This document shows, piece by piece, positions 2,327-28,605 of a stretch of DNA of 29,882 nucleotides (position 1 is the first letter of the stretch; each line of letters begins with the position of its first letter). Location: IMG/VR virus record IMGVR_UViG_3300036398_001717, positions 1-29,882 of that record. One strand, given 5' to 3'. Under the pieces are notes generated by a model that was not told the DNA's origin, ran no database searches, and saw nothing but the letters and a program-made list of their open reading frames with translations. This stretch comes from a virus. The position numbers and the translations under genes were made by a program.

Positions 2327-4201
2327 TTATGAAGCGCAACATGAGTAATACCAAGTTCCACTAGTATAGGCATACCAGGATACTGTTCCGCAAGCGCCAT
2401 TGCTTACTGACTGATTTGATGGGCTAGTTACAATACTTCTTCCACTATTTACCGTTGTTCCAGTAACGCAATTTTCATATGAAGATGCTAGGTCAGGTCC
2501 ACGGGTTGTGTATGTTGTTCCTGGTGTAGGAGTTGGTGTAGGAGTTGGTGTTGGTGTAGGAGTTGGTGTAGGAGTTGGTGTTGGCGTAGGTGTTGGCGTA
2601 GGTGTTGGCGTTGGAGTTGGAGTAGGTGTTGGTGTTGGAGTGGGTTCCACGTTCCAAGTTGCCTGTATTGATAGGTTTCCAGAACAACTTAGAGTTGCTC
2701 CAGTTGGATATCCACCAATAAATGATCCATTACATGTTACCATCCAACTTCCAAGAGTATATCCAGCCCTGCTTGCAGAAGAAGAAGGAATTACATAAGA
2801 GCCATTGTGTGTTGTATTTGCTGGCATTCCTGTTCCTCCGTTAGCATCATAGGTTACATTGTATACTGCTGGTGTAGGAGTTGGTGTAGGAGTTGGTGTT
2901 GGCGTAGGTGTTGGCGTAGGTGTTGGCGTAGGTGTTGGTGTAGGAGTTGGTGTTGGCGTAGGTGTTGGCGTAGGTGTAGGTGGTGTGCAACCAGCATTAC
3001 TACAATTTGGCAAGGTTGCTCCAGACTCATCGACTCCTGAATTGGTGCAAAGGTTTGTTGAGTAATCTCTTAAGTAAGTTCCGCTTGAATTCTTTACTTG
3101 ATAATTACACTTTCCATCATAATATGTAAATGTATATGTATTAACGCCAACTGGTCCAGGGGTAGTTAGAGTTGCCTGTGCTGACTGAGAAGATCCAGTT
3201 TGATTTGCTCCAGAATATACCGTAATAGTTATATCATGAGTTGTGCTTGGGGTCAGTCCAGTTGCAGAAGCAAACTTTGCAGTTGTTCCATTAAGACTGA
3301 AACCTGCTCCACCGCCTGCTGGGACTACGGTTAGAGAAAATGATACCTGTCCAACTGAATCCCAACTAATCCCTGCTGTTGATTCTCCAGTAACTATTGA
3401 TGACAAATTAGATACTGATAAGACAGGAGGAGTAGGTGTAGGGTCAACTGGTGTCGGTGTAGGTGTTGGTGTAGGAGTTGGTGTTGGTGTAGGTGTTGGT
3501 GTAGGAGTTGGTGTTGGTGTTGGTGTAGGTGTAGGTGTTGGTGTAGGTGTTGGTGTAGGTGTTGGTGTTACAGAAGAATTTTCGTAAATGTCTCCAGATA
3601 AAGACCAGGTGTTGGTGTCAAGTTTAATTAGTGTTGCTTTAGAAAATTGACCATCTAAAGACATTGTGTTATTTTTGCTTTTTACTGATACTGCAACACT
3701 CTCTGGAGCAATTGTAGTTGACCCAGTTCCAAGTTGAATAATGTCTACAGAATATCCTACTGGTATAGCAGTTGTTAAATTTGCGGGGACTGTAATTGTG
3801 GTTGGTGATGTTGAATCAACAGTGATAACTCTTGAATTATCTGATGCAGCCAATGTATAACTTGAAAGTTTAGATGTAATAGTTTTATATCCAGAAATAT
3901 TTTGCCAGATAGTTCCATCAAAATATTGTAACTGATCAACCCTAACTGAATTTTCATTTTCAGCAATAAAGCAAACAAGACCTCTTACTGGCTGAGTTAA
4001 AACTTGATCTCTATGAGTTGGGTTATTAAAATTATTAACACCCGCTTTTGCATTAATCACATCATTTGTTGTGACAGGAGCACCGTATGTGTGTGTTCCA
4101 CTCCATGTATAATTTAGGGCAGTATTTGCAGCACCAGAAATTGCATACCAAGTTCCGTTTTGATAAATATATGCAGTTTTTCCAATGTTGTTAATTGCCA
4201 T
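2327..4201 (-). CDS. Modular tail fibre with three Pro-Thr repeat linkers
   Basis: The 624-aa structural protein has these parts in order: N-terminal attachment region about 1-209; Pro-Thr linker about 211-259; a fibronectin III-like domain about 260-349; a Cys-containing YYDGKC segment about 350-403; second Pro-Thr linker about 404-443; a Listeria-Bacteroides (Flg_new/InlB-B-like) repeat starting YDANGGTG about 444-518; third linker about 519-561; and a Cys-rich C-terminal domain ending YYSCCAS. Alternating rigid linkers and small binding domains suggest a cell-surface adhesin or receptor-binding fibre. Pro-Thr runs are classic sites of actinobacterial protein O-mannosylation, and modification enzymes are encoded just downstream. 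It overlaps the previous gene by TAATG. The linkers are imperfect 6/12-nt DNA repeats and could vary in length between isolates. Confidence 0.8.
2518..3575 (-). repeat. Three low-complexity Pro-Thr coding tracts
   Basis: Tracts at about 2518-2645, 2871-2988 and 3425-3575 consist of degenerate hexamers (on + GGTGTA, GGTGTT, GGAGTT, GGCGTA). All code for Pro-Thr in one minus frame. Third-base mixing indicates selection on the protein as well as possible slippage. Confidence 0.9.
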
Positions 4202-13144: not shown

Positions 13145-13273
13145 ATGACCATTCATACGCATATACGCCTAAGACTAGTCATATACATATGCGCCCATGA
13201 TCAGTCATGTGCATATACGCCTATGACCATACATGGGTAGGGGTGCCTATGACCAGTCATATATACCTCGGCG
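13145..13273 (+). repeat. Five degenerate about 26-bp iterons
   Basis: Copies start at 13145, 13172, 13197, 13223 and 13249. The core is ATGACCAGTCAT, then 3 nt, then CATATACGCCT. Copies 1 and 3 are the most alike, and copies 4 and 5 diverge in the second half. The unspaced head-to-tail arrangement and near-constant period suit a replication or repressor binding array. Confidence 0.75.
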
Positions 13274-24930: not shown

Positions 24931-25107
24931 AAATCCCCGAGGATTCAGACAAATCGGACATCTTCAAACCATGGTATTTTTTGCCAACTATATTACGAAG
25001 GGGCTAAAAATTTCCCAGATCGTAGCATAAAAAGATTACGATGTCAAACCTTATTTCCCCAAACCTTATACCATACAAACCTTGGTTTGTCAAACCTTAT
25101 ATCCTGG

Positions 25108-25113
25108 TATAAT
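25108..25113 (+). promoter_or_regulatory. -10 box of a leaderless promoter
   Basis: TATAAT ends 6 nt before ATG 25120; TTGTCA lies 15 nt upstream (25087 region). Confidence 0.55.
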
Positions 25114-25119
25114 ATTCTT

Positions 25120-25380
25120 ATGAGTCCACACAATCATGCAAGGTTTAATGGGTCAAATGTTAATAGCCCTTCCTCATATCATAGTGGACAGAATGAATTA
25201 GGTTTGGCTATGGAAAGATTGCTCAATAGATCCTATAAGGGTTTGTATAAGTATAGTGGTTTGTATGCCTTCTTTAACTCCCGCCTTTTTTCCAGGGGAC
25301 TTACAGCAGAAAAACTATCTGACTTCAATAAGATGTATACCATATACACTAATAAAGAAGCAGAGATTACGAAGAGATAA
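25120..25380 (+). CDS. Small basic protein in the origin-like region (86 aa)
   Basis: Start set by the leaderless spacing. Ser/Asn-rich start, then basic Tyr-rich helices (LLNRSYKGLYKYSGLYAFFN). It lies between repeat clusters, so it may bind this region, as replication initiators or repressors often do; no motif proves it. It even contains GGTTTG words in its coding sequence. Confidence 0.55.
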   Translation: MSPHNHARFNGSNVNSPSSYHSGQNELGLAMERLLNRSYKGLYKYSGLYAFFNSRLFSRGLTAEKLSDFNKMYTIYTNKEAEITKR

Positions 25381-25808
25381 TTCTTTTCCAGTTTCAAACC
25401 TTTTTCCTGATTTATAAAACCTTTATATATTTTTATTGAGGTTTGTCGACATTTTCTCCTATTTTTGGGAGATTTTTTTATGGGGTTTTGGGCTTGACAA
25501 ACCCTGTTTCAGGGTATATAATGCCCAAATAAAGATTACGAAGGTTTGACAAATTTCCCCAATTGTGGTATAAGCAGGCTATGCAGGATATAAAGGTTTG
25601 GAGGTTTGAGGTTTGGCCGTCAGAAAGATTACGAGCCCCCTCTATAAAAGCGTTCCATTCTCCACTATCCTCCACTCTACTCCACTTCTAGAATGTTAAA
25701 CAATACAATCAGTAAGATTATTCTGTGGATAAACCTGTGGATAACTATAAAAAATATGATCAAACCATCATATCAAACCTGTGGACAACTCTTTGATATA
25801 ATGGACAT
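25381..25808. other. Gene-free repeat region
   Basis: 428 nt with GGTTTG in triple array at about 25593-25615, GATTACGA at 25534 and 25627, a TTGACA motif at about 25494, and the DnaA-box cluster from 25724. No gene seen. Confidence 0.6.
25797..25802 (+). promoter_or_regulatory. -10 box of a leaderless promoter
   Basis: TATAAT ends 6 nt before ATG 25809 and lies just past a DnaA-like box. Confidence 0.55.
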
Positions 25809-25931
25809 ATGGACAAACCAGAGTATGATTCATTAGGTAAATTATGGAAAGATGCACCAGATTGGTGTGATGATTGTGTAGCAAATCCAGGAGAAACCTG
25901 TCCTGAATGTGGATATACACATAACTGCTAA
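25809..25931 (+). CDS. Cys-rich 40-aa peptide
   Basis: Leaderless start. CDDC, CPEC and a final Cys (GYTHNC) give a compact zinc knuckle. It sits between DnaA-like boxes. Unknown. Confidence 0.55.
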   Translation: MDKPEYDSLGKLWKDAPDWCDDCVANPGETCPECGYTHNC

Positions 25932-26064
25932 CCTGTGGATAACTCTAAAATCCAGGGGGATATCAAACCCTGTTACTGTGGATATGGGGGATATGGGGCT
26001 ATATGGGGTTTATATCTTATACTAGGGATTACGATCATCTCTTATGCTCCCCCGCAAAATAGGC

Positions 26065-26070
26065 TATACT
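26065..26070 (+). promoter_or_regulatory. -10 box of a leaderless promoter (GTG start)
   Basis: TATACT ends 6 nt before GTG 26077. Confidence 0.55.
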
Positions 26071-26076
26071 TGGTAG

Positions 26077-26694
26077 GTGGATTTTACATTTGGGATTACG
26101 ACTGACTACAAGAATGTAGATCGTCTGCTTGACACAATTAGAAGCATAAAGTCTTTGAGGATACCTAACTATGAGATTTTAATCATTGGTCCTGCCCATA
26201 GCCAGATAGATCCAGATGTAATCCAAATACTATTTGACTCACCTACCCCTATGTGGATAACCAAAAAGAAAAATATCTTATCCAAAAATGCCAAATACGA
26301 AAATGTTATTTTGATGCACGACTACTTTATATTTGATCATAAGTGGTATTCTGCTTTTCTTGATTTTGGCAATGATTGGGATATCGCAACTAACACTCAA
26401 CTATACATTGATGGTTCTAGATATAGATATGATTGGGTTATCTGGGATCATCCTGAGATTCCTCGCTATACCCAGATACCAACTGATGACTGGTCTTTGA
26501 CCAAAAATATGTATATATCTGGATCATATATGATAGTCAAGAAATATGTTATGGAGCACCACCCACTTAATGAAAACCTCATATGGGATCAAAAAGAAGA
26601 TGTTGACTGGTCACTAAGAGTAAGAGATAGATACTCTATTGTATTTAACACTGAGGCTATAGTTAGACATAATAAGTATCATAGGTCATATTGA
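26077..26694 (+). CDS. GT-A-type (GT2-like) glycosyltransferase
   Basis: 205 aa. Residues 3-17 (FTFGITTDYKNVDRL) and YEILIIGPAH at about 33-42 are the first two Rossmann strands of GT-A enzymes, with VILMHDYFIFDHKWY at about 76-90 at the position of the DxD motif (here HDY). Late residues WDQKEDVDWSLRVRD carry the ED pair typical of the acceptor-side catalytic base. The GTG start is fixed by the promoter. Substrate unknown; third glycosyltransferase of the window. Confidence 0.65.
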   Translation: MDFTFGITTDYKNVDRLLDTIRSIKSLRIPNYEILIIGPAHSQIDPDVIQILFDSPTPMWITKKKNILSKNAKYENVILMHDYFIFDHKWYSAFLDFGNDWDIATNTQLYIDGSRYRYDWVIWDHPEIPRYTQIPTDDWSLTKNMYISGSYMIVKKYVMEHHPLNENLIWDQKEDVDWSLRVRDRYSIVFNTEAIVRHNKYHRSY

Positions 26695-26719
26695 CTTCCC
26701 CCGCCAAAACCGCTATACT
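26691..26719 (+). promoter_or_regulatory. Sigma-70-type promoter, leaderless
   Basis: TTGACT-N17-TATACT, ending 6 nt before ATG 26726; its -35 overlaps the previous stop codon. Confidence 0.75.
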
Positions 26720-26725
26720 AGATGT

Positions 26726-26932
26726 ATGATTAATATGGAAATACCTGACCCATTTGAGACCTTTGTAGCCAAGAAATATGCTAACGCTAAGGGTTTAGTC
26801 TATGACTTCTTTGCCAAAGAGTGGCACCTTAAAACAGCCTGCTGTGGCGAAGAACTGTATGCCCCAAGCAAAAAGATTATGAATAAAATTAGGCTATATC
26901 ATACTAGAAATGAGTGCATGGGTGGATACTGA
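26726..26932 (+). CDS. Small Cys protein (68 aa)
   Basis: Leaderless. LKTACCGEELYAPSKK then a basic helix and a late Cys. Overlaps the next gene by 23 nt. Unknown. Confidence 0.6.
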   Translation: MINMEIPDPFETFVAKKYANAKGLVYDFFAKEWHLKTACCGEELYAPSKKIMNKIRLYHTRNECMGGY

Positions 26933-27044
26933 ACAAACCTTCGACCAGGAGTTTAGCGTTGAAGAGATTACGAAGGCTATTGTAGATCAGGCTAAGGCTG
27001 ATATCAAGGCTAAGTTTGGTAACAAGAAAAGACATAGACAATGA
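26910..27044 (+). CDS. 44-aa helical peptide
   Basis: ATG inside the preceding gene; FSVEEITKAIVDQAKADIKA then a basic tail (KFGNKKRHRQ). Ends in ATGA overlap. Confidence 0.5.
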   Translation: MSAWVDTEQTFDQEFSVEEITKAIVDQAKADIKAKFGNKKRHRQ

Positions 27045-27142
27045 ACTGCCCTACCTGTAAAATGGATAAAGAAGATATCGAATACTGGGATAACCACCAG
27101 ACAATGAGTGATTATAGGGTGTGGTGTGCAAAAAGAATGTAG
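27041..27142 (+). CDS. 33-aa Cys peptide
   Basis: MNCPTCKMDKEDIEYW with C-x2-C and a late Cys. ATGA-coupled. It and the overlapping 47-aa frame may be two halves of one zinc-ribbon gene split by a frameshift. Confidence 0.45.
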   Translation: MNCPTCKMDKEDIEYWDNHQTMSDYRVWCAKRM

Positions 27143-27251
27143 CCATACTTGGTATATGCGTGAAGAAGGAATTCAATGCACTAAGTGCTTAATATTGTGG
27201 GATAGGAGTATGGATGAAGGAACCAAAGATTTCTCAAATGGACTGGCGTAG
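27108..27251 (+). CDS. 47-aa Cys peptide (GTG start)
   Basis: In the +1 frame of its neighbour: GCGVQKECSHTWYMREEGIQ followed by CTKC. Together with the upstream CPTC it would make a full two-pair ribbon. Confidence 0.45.
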   Translation: MIIGCGVQKECSHTWYMREEGIQCTKCLILWDRSMDEGTKDFSNGLA

Positions 27252-27339
27252 CCTAGGCTATTGGCCTGTGTATAAAGATGGAAAGAAAGTGTGGGTGCCT
27301 AAAAATGATAAATCATTCAACCAAGATACAGAGAACTAA
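27214..27339 (+). CDS. 41-aa peptide
   Basis: AGGAG 5 nt before the ATG. MKEPKISQMDWRSLGYWPVY is aromatic and basic. Overlaps both neighbours in other frames. Confidence 0.5.
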   Translation: MKEPKISQMDWRSLGYWPVYKDGKKVWVPKNDKSFNQDTEN

Positions 27340-27568
27340 GATCCTGCCATTACGATGGATAGGAAATATATGTGGAGAGTTTGCTGGCAATCATATAGTA
27401 AAGTGTGTTAATATGGACGAAGATGAAGAATATGGTTGGCGTTATAAATACCACGCAAAAATGTGGAAGTATCTTAACAAGCCTTACGAACTGTGGGGAA
27501 CTTATTACACTATAGATATGGCTGCATGGAAGAAAGAACTAACAGATATCGAGTCGCAAGACTCGTAG
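27278..27568 (+). CDS. Phage protein (up to 96 aa)
   Basis: The conserved-looking core is RWIGNICGEFAGNHIVKCVN then WRYKYHAKMWKYLNKPYELW. The start is uncertain: ATG 27278, ATG 27305 or ATG 27413, none with a good ribosome site. The W-R-Y-K-x-H-A-K motif looks functional, but I cannot name the family. Confidence 0.6.
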   Translation: MERKCGCLKMINHSTKIQRTKILPLRWIGNICGEFAGNHIVKCVNMDEDEEYGWRYKYHAKMWKYLNKPYELWGTYYTIDMAAWKKELTDIESQDS

Positions 27569-27618
27569 AGTTGTTCACCCCTCTCTATTTTGCGCCGAAC
27601 TTTAAACCATCTATATGC

Positions 27619-27624
27619 TATACT
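27619..27624 (+). promoter_or_regulatory. -10 box of a leaderless promoter
   Basis: TATACT ends 6 nt before ATG 27631. Confidence 0.6.
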
Positions 27625-27630
27625 TAAATT

Positions 27631-27741
27631 ATGAACTGTGAATATTGCGAAAGAGAAGCACTATATAATCAGCCACGCAAAGAAGATGGCCAGATCATAA
27701 GTGTATGCAAGAAACATTTTACAGCCGTCCAGCCGTCATGA
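27631..27741 (+). CDS. 36-aa zinc-knuckle peptide
   Basis: CEYC near the start and VCKKH later: C-x2-C / C-x2-H, a likely zinc site. Leaderless; ATGA-coupled to the next gene. Confidence 0.55.
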   Translation: MNCEYCEREALYNQPRKEDGQIISVCKKHFTAVQPS

Positions 27742-27887
27742 ACGAAGAAAAAGCCAGGGCTATGCTAGATTTAGCCAATAAATTAGATAAATTTGAATTT
27801 ATGCTGCGACTAAAATGTGAGATATGTGGTCCTAAACTTCGTGGAACACCAGGAAATTATCCTAAATGCAAAAGACACGAGCAGTAG
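27738..27887 (+). CDS. Small basic Cys protein (49 aa)
   Basis: ATGA-coupled start. Helix EEKARAMLDLANKLDKFEFM then CEIC...C-x3-H. Probably zinc-bound; unknown. Confidence 0.55.
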   Translation: MNEEKARAMLDLANKLDKFEFMLRLKCEICGPKLRGTPGNYPKCKRHEQ

Positions 27888-27904
27888 GTGTGGTATCATT
27901 GAGT

Positions 27905-28030
27905 ATGACTAAAAAAATATACAAGTGCACTGAATGCAAGACAATCATATCTATTGAAACTGAGGTTCACGACCTACCAGTGTCAATTGTCTGTCCTTGT
28001 GATCAAGTAATGCCATCAATCGGAGCGTAA
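27905..28030 (+). CDS. Zinc-ribbon peptide (41 aa)
   Basis: KCTEC and CPC make a rubredoxin-like or RPB12-like knuckle. TATCAT lies 5 nt upstream of the ATG. TAATG couples it to the hydroxylase gene, so the two are made together. Confidence 0.6.
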   Translation: MTKKIYKCTECKTIISIETEVHDLPVSIVCPCDQVMPSIGA

Positions 28031-28605
28031 TGGACACGAGGAGAAATCTTCCTAGAACTGGCGTTTATTACGAAGCCACTAACAGGATTGGCAAGTCTCC
28101 AGATAACATTAAAACCTTTAAATCTTTTGTGTCGCAAGATGATTCAAAACTAATAGTTGACGCTGTAGATTTTCTACTTCCTGATGGACCAGATGTTGAT
28201 CCAGATGAGCGTAGGCAAATACAGGTAGATGATCTACCAGATAATGTAAGATCAATTGTCAAAGACTATATAAACAAATCACTAGAAACAATGCAAAATC
28301 AGTATAATGTAAAACTAGAGCATAGCCTTGACGATCATTGGATAGTTAAGTGGTCAGTAGGAAATGATATGGGTGTGCATGCAGACGATGATGTTGTTTC
28401 AGGACTGCAGGTATCTGGAGTAATGTATTTTAGTGATGGATATGACGGTGGAGAGATTATATTTCCTAATCAAGATATGTCTATTAAGCCTGAAATGGGT
28501 GATCTAGTTATATTCCCTGGAAATTTAACATACCCTCACGGAGTGAATGCTATTAAGTCTGGACATAGATATAGTCTTCCACTTTGGGGCAAATATATTA
28601 GATAG
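28030..28605 (+). CDS. 2OG-Fe(II) oxygenase, prolyl-4-hydroxylase-like
   Basis: 191 aa. The C-terminal half carries the full active site: H117-x-D119 (GVHADDD), distal H170 (YPHGV) and R180 (GHRYSL) exactly 10 residues on, with GVMYFSDGYDGGEIIFP between, typical of the P4H/2OG oxygenase fold. It uses O2, Fe(II) and 2-oxoglutarate to hydroxylate a side chain, classically proline. No signal peptide, so it acts in the cytoplasm. Collagen-like Gly-X-Pro and Pro-Thr fibre segments of the same phage are plausible substrates; this is inference. It could instead modify a host protein or a nucleotide. Confidence 0.85.
   Translation: MDTRRNLPRTGVYYEATNRIGKSPDNIKTFKSFVSQDDSKLIVDAVDFLLPDGPDVDPDERRQIQVDDLPDNVRSIVKDYINKSLETMQNQYNVKLEHSLDDHWIVKWSVGNDMGVHADDDVVSGLQVSGVMYFSDGYDGGEIIFPNQDMSIKPEMGDLVIFPGNLTYPHGVNAIKSGHRYSLPLWGKYIR

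Follow-up and report, generated by a model that had tools for sequence, protein, structure and literature searches.

Large phages that encode their own replisome are usually considered to start replication without the host initiator DnaA. The locus described here raises the question of whether such a phage could use the host starter instead. It lies in a nearly gene-free control region of a freshwater phage genome, within a 29,882-bp virus record which is probably a genome fragment, and the whole of which is referred to below as the window. The original prediction made from this DNA was that of a replication origin, composed of a cluster of DnaA boxes, CAAACC iterons and AT-rich DNA. The picture that now emerges is centered on a module of about 120 bp (25,627–25,744), which we lean towards reading, from its anatomy and its conservation in relatives, as an actinobacterial-phage replication origin opened by host DnaA.

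The module and its surroundings

The four predicted DnaA boxes are indeed found at 25724, 25736, 25780 and 25934, all on the minus strand. The consensus TTRTCCACA occurs at two further places in the window, 17187 and 26252, the latter inside a coding sequence. These six occurrences compare with 0.76 expected, and none of 500 first-order Markov simulations reached six; the four boxes clustered within 220 bp compare with a null maximum of two. The predicted AT-richness applies to a much shorter stretch than was thought. The GC content of the 1.1-kb region is close to that of the whole window, and it is the 60 bp starting at 25697, beside the boxes, that rank among the 2.5% least stable positions in the window, which is a modest effect.

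Two elements had escaped the original prediction. The first one, GATTACGA, is present in seven copies in the window, all on the plus strand, six of them within 1.1 kb versus a null maximum of two. The second one is a triple CTCCACT repeat (25660, 25670 and 25680) with an exact 10-bp phase. Along the module, GATTACGA is followed by the CTCCACT triple, by an AT-rich stretch containing ATCAGTAAGAT, and by two co-oriented TTATCCACA boxes (Table 1). The CTCCACT repeats are proposed to form a putative site for a phage protein, and the AT-rich stretch is proposed as a candidate unwinding element.

Table 1. Sequence features of the module and of the surrounding control region (window coordinates)
Feature	Position	Strand	Basis
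CAAACC/GGTTTG word cluster, both orientations	24965–25969	.	
GGTTTGTCAAACC palindrome over -35-like TTGTCA, 16 bp before TATAAT (25108)	25084–25096	.	
86-aa ORF, ATG 7 nt after TATAAT	25120–25380	+	
Promoter-like TTGACA–17 bp–TATAAT, CAAACC overlapping the -35 box	25494–25522	+	
Promoter-like TTGACA–17 bp–TATAAG, directed at the module	25546–25574	+	
GATTACGA element, start of the module	25627–25634	+	Repeat search
Three CTCCACT repeats, exact 10-bp phase	25660–25686	+	Conserved in relatives
AT-rich stretch, invariant ATCAGTAAGAT at 25708–25718	25687–25723	.	Conservation and stability profile
DnaA-trio-like run, eight consecutive NTN triplets 3' of the box pair (NAN on the plus strand)	25698–25721	-	
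DnaA box 1, TTATCCACA	25724–25732	-	
DnaA box 2, TTATCCACA, co-oriented with box 1, 12-bp period, 3-bp gap	25736–25744	-	
DnaA box 3, TTGTCCACA, 8 bp before TATAAT	25780–25788	-	
TATAAT (25797) and 40-aa Cys-rich ORF (ATG 25809)	25797–25931	+	
DnaA box 4, TTATCCACA, directly past the stop codon of the 40-aa ORF	25934–25942	-	

Other features of the window include (G/A)ATTACGA repeats, of which 10 of the 11 copies lie at 24992–28067, all on the plus strand. A tandem array (26 bp, 3.3 copies) is located at 13145–13229 in a gene-poor stretch. A 624-aa protein with long Thr-Pro repeats is encoded on the minus strand at 2327–4201, among collagen-like and tail-type genes.

Conservation across freshwater phages

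Two related contigs (L007 and L008) retain the region, and their clearest noncoding conservation runs from GATTACGA through the CTCCACT triple and the AT-rich stretch with ATCAGTAAGAT to the box pair; neither of them has an exact box at the place aligned with box 4. A scan of viral contigs for the tandem box pattern returned at least 120 stretches, many of them unrelated to the module. Viral contigs were also queried with CTCCACTNNNCTCCACTNNNCTCCACT, with no box required, in order to avoid selection for boxes. At least 77 distinct modules belong to class 1, defined by the presence of a CAGTAAGAT-like word. Among the matches listed, at least one same-strand box is found within about 210 bp downstream in 72 of the 77 class-1 modules, and at least two in 69; an opposite-strand box in this interval, or any box in the 200 bp upstream, occurs in none of the 77. 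Lack of conservation of the boxes had been named as an argument against an origin. They are kept, and the exceptions amount to five of the 77 modules (among the matches listed), in which the exact box is missing although the core is preserved. Since such modules exist, and since two complete relatives (G006 and G007) have no box at the module, the core may serve a role independent of DnaA.

Details of the geometry were drawn from 88 nonredundant modules of all sources (matches listed), a set partly selected for boxes, the 77-module figure being the fair one. The spacing of the box pair is 12 bp in 55 of these 88 modules and 11 bp in 20, and in 64 the first CTCCACT is preceded by (G/C)ATTACGA at -31/-32. 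The first box pair lies at a fixed distance from CTCCACT, regardless of the downstream sequence.

Boxes are sometimes found elsewhere in the genome. In G006 this is an inverted pair at a distance of 10 kb, in G007 a single box, and in the class-1 relative G005, also boxless at its module, an 11-bp pair at a distance of 8 kb. Other freshwater lineages also have boxes near their CTCCACT triples, with three box-like sites in 11-bp steps (the middle one being TTATACACA) just before the CTCCACT triple in G009, and a 12-bp box pair about 380 bp before the triple in G010. There is also a second class of CTCCACT triples, and none of its 17 members (among the matches listed) lies within 200 bp of a box. 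The link between the CTCCACT triple and DnaA boxes across freshwater lineages is recurrent, not universal. In phages of this second class (L070, L160, L167, L182, L199, L203 and others), the triple is followed by a hairpin-like AGCCTTCTAAGGGCT. A blastn search of the module against the phage collection gave weak matches only (best E 0.01, T5-like phages first), and no match to it was found in the plasmid collection.

Resemblance to a basal unwinding system

The published rules for the basal unwinding system (BUS) call for two co-oriented DnaA boxes no more than 3 bp apart, then a spacer, then at least three DnaA-trios downstream of the boxes. The middle A of the trios is conserved, on the strand whose complement reads 5'-CTA-3'. 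The boxes at 25724 and 25736 are co-oriented, with a 3-bp gap. The search for at least three trios covered 0–16 bp from the boxes, on the side and the strand that these rules predict. In this test, which was picked after the conserved stretch had been seen and in which the four combinations of side and strand were examined together, the run comprises eight triplets in the window (shuffle P 0.0042) and seven in the consensus (shuffle P 0.0043). Unstable DNA beside the boxes is present as well, to the modest extent mentioned above for the 60 bp from 25697.

The NTN run 3' of the TTATCCACA pair has a mean length of 6.5 triplets in 83 modules versus 3.0 in shuffles, which counts as one evolutionary observation and not as 83, because the modules are homologous. 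Runs on the other strand, or on the other side of the pair, stay at the shuffle level. A run of seven is seen in 1.5% of random 37-mers of equal GC, and a run of six is reached at 2 of the 59 other DnaA boxes in these genomes. Mean entropy amounts to 0.34 for the middle base of the triplets, versus 0.41 for the first and 0.85 for the third base, the contrast between middle and first being weak.

Such an arrangement also bears on the possibility of a decoy, in which the boxes would titrate host DnaA and halt the initiation of host chromosome replication. Several consensus boxes on a genome turning multicopy would suit this role, but three or four per genome is a small number, and titration needs neither the 12-bp spacing nor the single strand, the trio-like run or the phased triple repeat. 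We regard this explanation as very improbable.

CAAACC words, promoters and small genes

The predicted cluster of CAAACC/GGTTTG words is real, with 20 of them in the region (17.4 per kb) versus 19 in the rest of the window (0.66 per kb); up to 21 fall within 1.1 kb, against a maximum of six in simulations. It is their interpretation as origin iterons that finds no support. They occur in both orientations with irregular spacing, and several copies are fused to -35 boxes (25494 and 25546) or form GGTTTGNCAAACC (25084), so that they look like operators or promoter elements. The cluster is found near the module in most complete relatives, and hardly in G003. The 86-aa and the 40-aa Cys-rich ORFs are both probably leaderless, and the former has no match in Pfam or PHROGs.

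These observations could fit a transcription hub devoid of any origin, where a phage regulator would act on the CAAACC/GGTTTG operators over the -35 boxes and host DnaA would repress or activate the small leaderless genes by way of the boxes next to their promoters. Promoter-like sites with a built-in CAAACC are what this hypothesis predicts, and the position of box 3 just upstream of the TATAAT of a probably leaderless ORF would also be accounted for. It is also in favor of this hypothesis that a TANNNT followed by a start codon is detected after the last box in 28 of 72 modules (among the matches listed). The same pattern reveals no such promoter in the other 44 (among the matches listed), and the idea that the last box always lies within a promoter was dropped. 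The first pair keeps its distance from CTCCACT whatever follows, and regulation of this kind does not explain the trio-like run, restricted to one side and one strand. A hub without origin function appears unlikely.

Complete relatives, replication genes and host

The complete relatives include three circular assemblies (G001, G002 and G006, 112–118 kb, with short end overlaps), to which three long linear records can be added. TerL, a DnaE-type polymerase, helicase, primase, SSB, RecA, portal, capsid and WhiB are shared with Streptomyces phage Samisti12, and the shared genes have the same relative orientation, the records being written the opposite way round. The identity levels (52–54% for TerL, 51–52% for the polymerase, 44–47% for the portal) are in the range of a distant or separate family, and the complete relatives would be distant kin of the Stanwilliamsviridae. 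Among the window's own genes, only GP88 and DUF932 (52% for DUF932) are shared with this family. A 2OG-Fe(II) oxygenase gene is located at 28030–28602 of the window, and many divergent copies are present in complete relatives (G001, G002 and G007).

Initiator, loader and helicase profiles (PF08299, PF01695 and PF03796) were searched in eight genomes. DnaB_C is matched in all eight of them, and DnaA_C and IstB/DnaC in none. The fact that neither DnaA nor an IstB/DnaC-type loader was detected in the complete relatives with these profiles is consistent with the predicted role of the boxes.

An actinobacterial host is indicated by the presence of WhiB and by the relationship to Streptomyces phages. 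The published Nanopelagicales phages, of about 39 kb, are far smaller. The single match in the genome collection, L312 (CANGYR010000020.1), belongs to a MAG labelled Chitinophagaceae; it is probably a mis-binned phage contig, since it encodes proteins 83–99% identical to those of the window.

GC skew, which had been suggested as a source of evidence, gave no origin signature in the three circular relatives. Cumulative skew tracks gene direction. The third-position skew of plus-strand genes flips sign across the module, and this is not a replication-strand effect, since the skew of minus-strand genes varies with map position in the same way. In the coding strand of G001, G002 and G006, third-position skew takes negative values to one side of the module and mostly positive values to the other, for both gene orientations.

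Cultured Stanwilliamsviridae and the question of genome ends

Boxes are present in the corresponding gap of seven of the eight cultured Stanwilliamsviridae checked, whatever the length of their terminal repeat, and we infer that the Loccivirinae gap is homologous to that of the window. Samisti12 has three boxes at 122951–122995, about 50 bp outside its 10,666-bp terminal repeat, and Jay2Jay has two exact boxes and a degenerate one at the matching place. In these two phages, the boxes lie about 50–95 bp outside terminal repeats of 10.7–11.4 kb (for Jay2Jay, 11,438 bp as computed here, with the first 1,500 bases checked, versus 10,778 published). Clusters of three or four boxes, each confined to about 300 bp, occur in Forrest, Gilson, BillNye and TunaTartare, and the two boxes of Blueeyedbeauty are 255 bp apart; the terminal repeats of these five phages are 0.77–2.3 kb long and about 5–6.5 kb away from the boxes. 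No boxes were found in Tomas, and no cluster in the more distant Trina. TTACGA/TTTACGA-type repeats also occur near the box gap of Samisti12 and of some other Stanwilliamsviridae.

The injection stop signal of phage T5 has been described with repeats and DnaA boxes (PMC13250531). By analogy, boxes and repeats could mark the junction of a first-entering terminal block, where they would pause DNA entry or guide packaging. The location of the Samisti12 and Jay2Jay boxes, by position at the inner edge of the terminal repeat, agrees with this proposal, and the T5-like L257 bears box-like sites in its terminal repeat. In addition, the start of 9 of 81 contigs falls in the 300 bp preceding the module, versus a single contig end in the 300 bp following it, but these starts may reflect a genome end as well as repeats or strain variation. 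The five Loccivirinae phages with boxes kilobases away from short terminal repeats indicate that the box cluster does not track the genome end, and they lower the packaging-site reading. Closeness of the cluster to the genome end is not constant, and a role at genome ends is considered quite unlikely.

In the L257 terminal repeat, CAGTAGAATAACCTGTTGATAAGTCTGTTGATAAC (2945–2975) resembles by eye the layout of ATCAGTAAGAT and the box pair in the window; the 161 bp around it are present in 526 phage records.

A possible mechanism for the proposed DnaA-opened origin

The origin predicted from the boxes has gained comparative support, through the constancy of their position, strand and spacing across dozens of phages and through a BUS-like anatomy. 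Retention of an oriC-like module in dozens of related phages suggests that the host starter is borrowed. According to the DnaA-opened origin that we favor, host DnaA would bind the co-oriented pair 25724/25736. ATP-DnaA could then extend from this pair onto the trio-like run at 25698–25721 and melt the stretch in the BUS manner, as its anatomy suggests. On the far side of the AT-rich stretch, a phage protein probably acts on the phased CTCCACT repeats, which would make firing phage-specific. Once bound, this protein may help to bring in the DnaB-type helicase, the primase and the DnaE-type polymerase. The upstream promoters facing the module may activate it by transcription.

A broader proposal can be formulated, which we put forward as tentative and on the whole doubtful. 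A large clade of actinobacterial phages would combine a complete host-type oriC unwinding module with phased repeats of their own, firing would need both host DnaA and a phage protein, and the T5 injection-stop boxes would likewise belong to a DnaA-opened origin. The conserved BUS-like module and the box clusters of cultured Streptomyces phages allow the usual view of replication start in large phages to be tested with common laboratory strains, and the module provides a specific hypothesis to account for the DnaA boxes that have been reported close to the injection stop signal of T5.

Comparison with known systems

Iteron-type phage and plasmid origins with DnaA boxes, of the P1 oriR type, have short repeats, an AT-rich segment and boxes side by side. 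The same three ingredients adjoin one another in the module. It differs from this type by its 7-mers at 10-bp phase, in place of long iterons, and by the fact that no initiator gene was recognized with the three profiles searched.

The gap of cultured Stanwilliamsviridae is comparable to that of the window in that a box cluster lies in a gene-poor gap with TTACGA-type repeats nearby, downstream of DUF932 in the case of Samisti12. Unlike in the window, the boxes are partly inverted, and Samisti12 has no CTCCACT triple. The T5 injection stop region is similar to its counterparts in T5-like phages and in some Stanwilliamsviridae, which are likewise noncoding and combine repeats with DnaA boxes at, or close to, a long terminal repeat. 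It differs from the other Stanwilliamsviridae examined, where the boxes are kilobases away from the terminal repeat.

The bacterial oriC BUS, exemplified by DnaA-box#6/#7 and the DnaA-trios of B. subtilis, differs from the module in several respects. The module is carried by a phage, its triplets follow 3'-GAT-5' more loosely, box and trios are not separated by a GC cluster, and it has phased CTCCACT repeats alongside, not the dnaA gene. In both, two TTATCCACA boxes of the same orientation are separated by 3 bp, and the module shares with the BUS a spacer of 2–5 nt, followed by seven or more triplets whose middle base is the required one, on the expected strand. On paper, the module would work like a BUS, whose anatomy is recovered wherever the sequence allows it to be tested.
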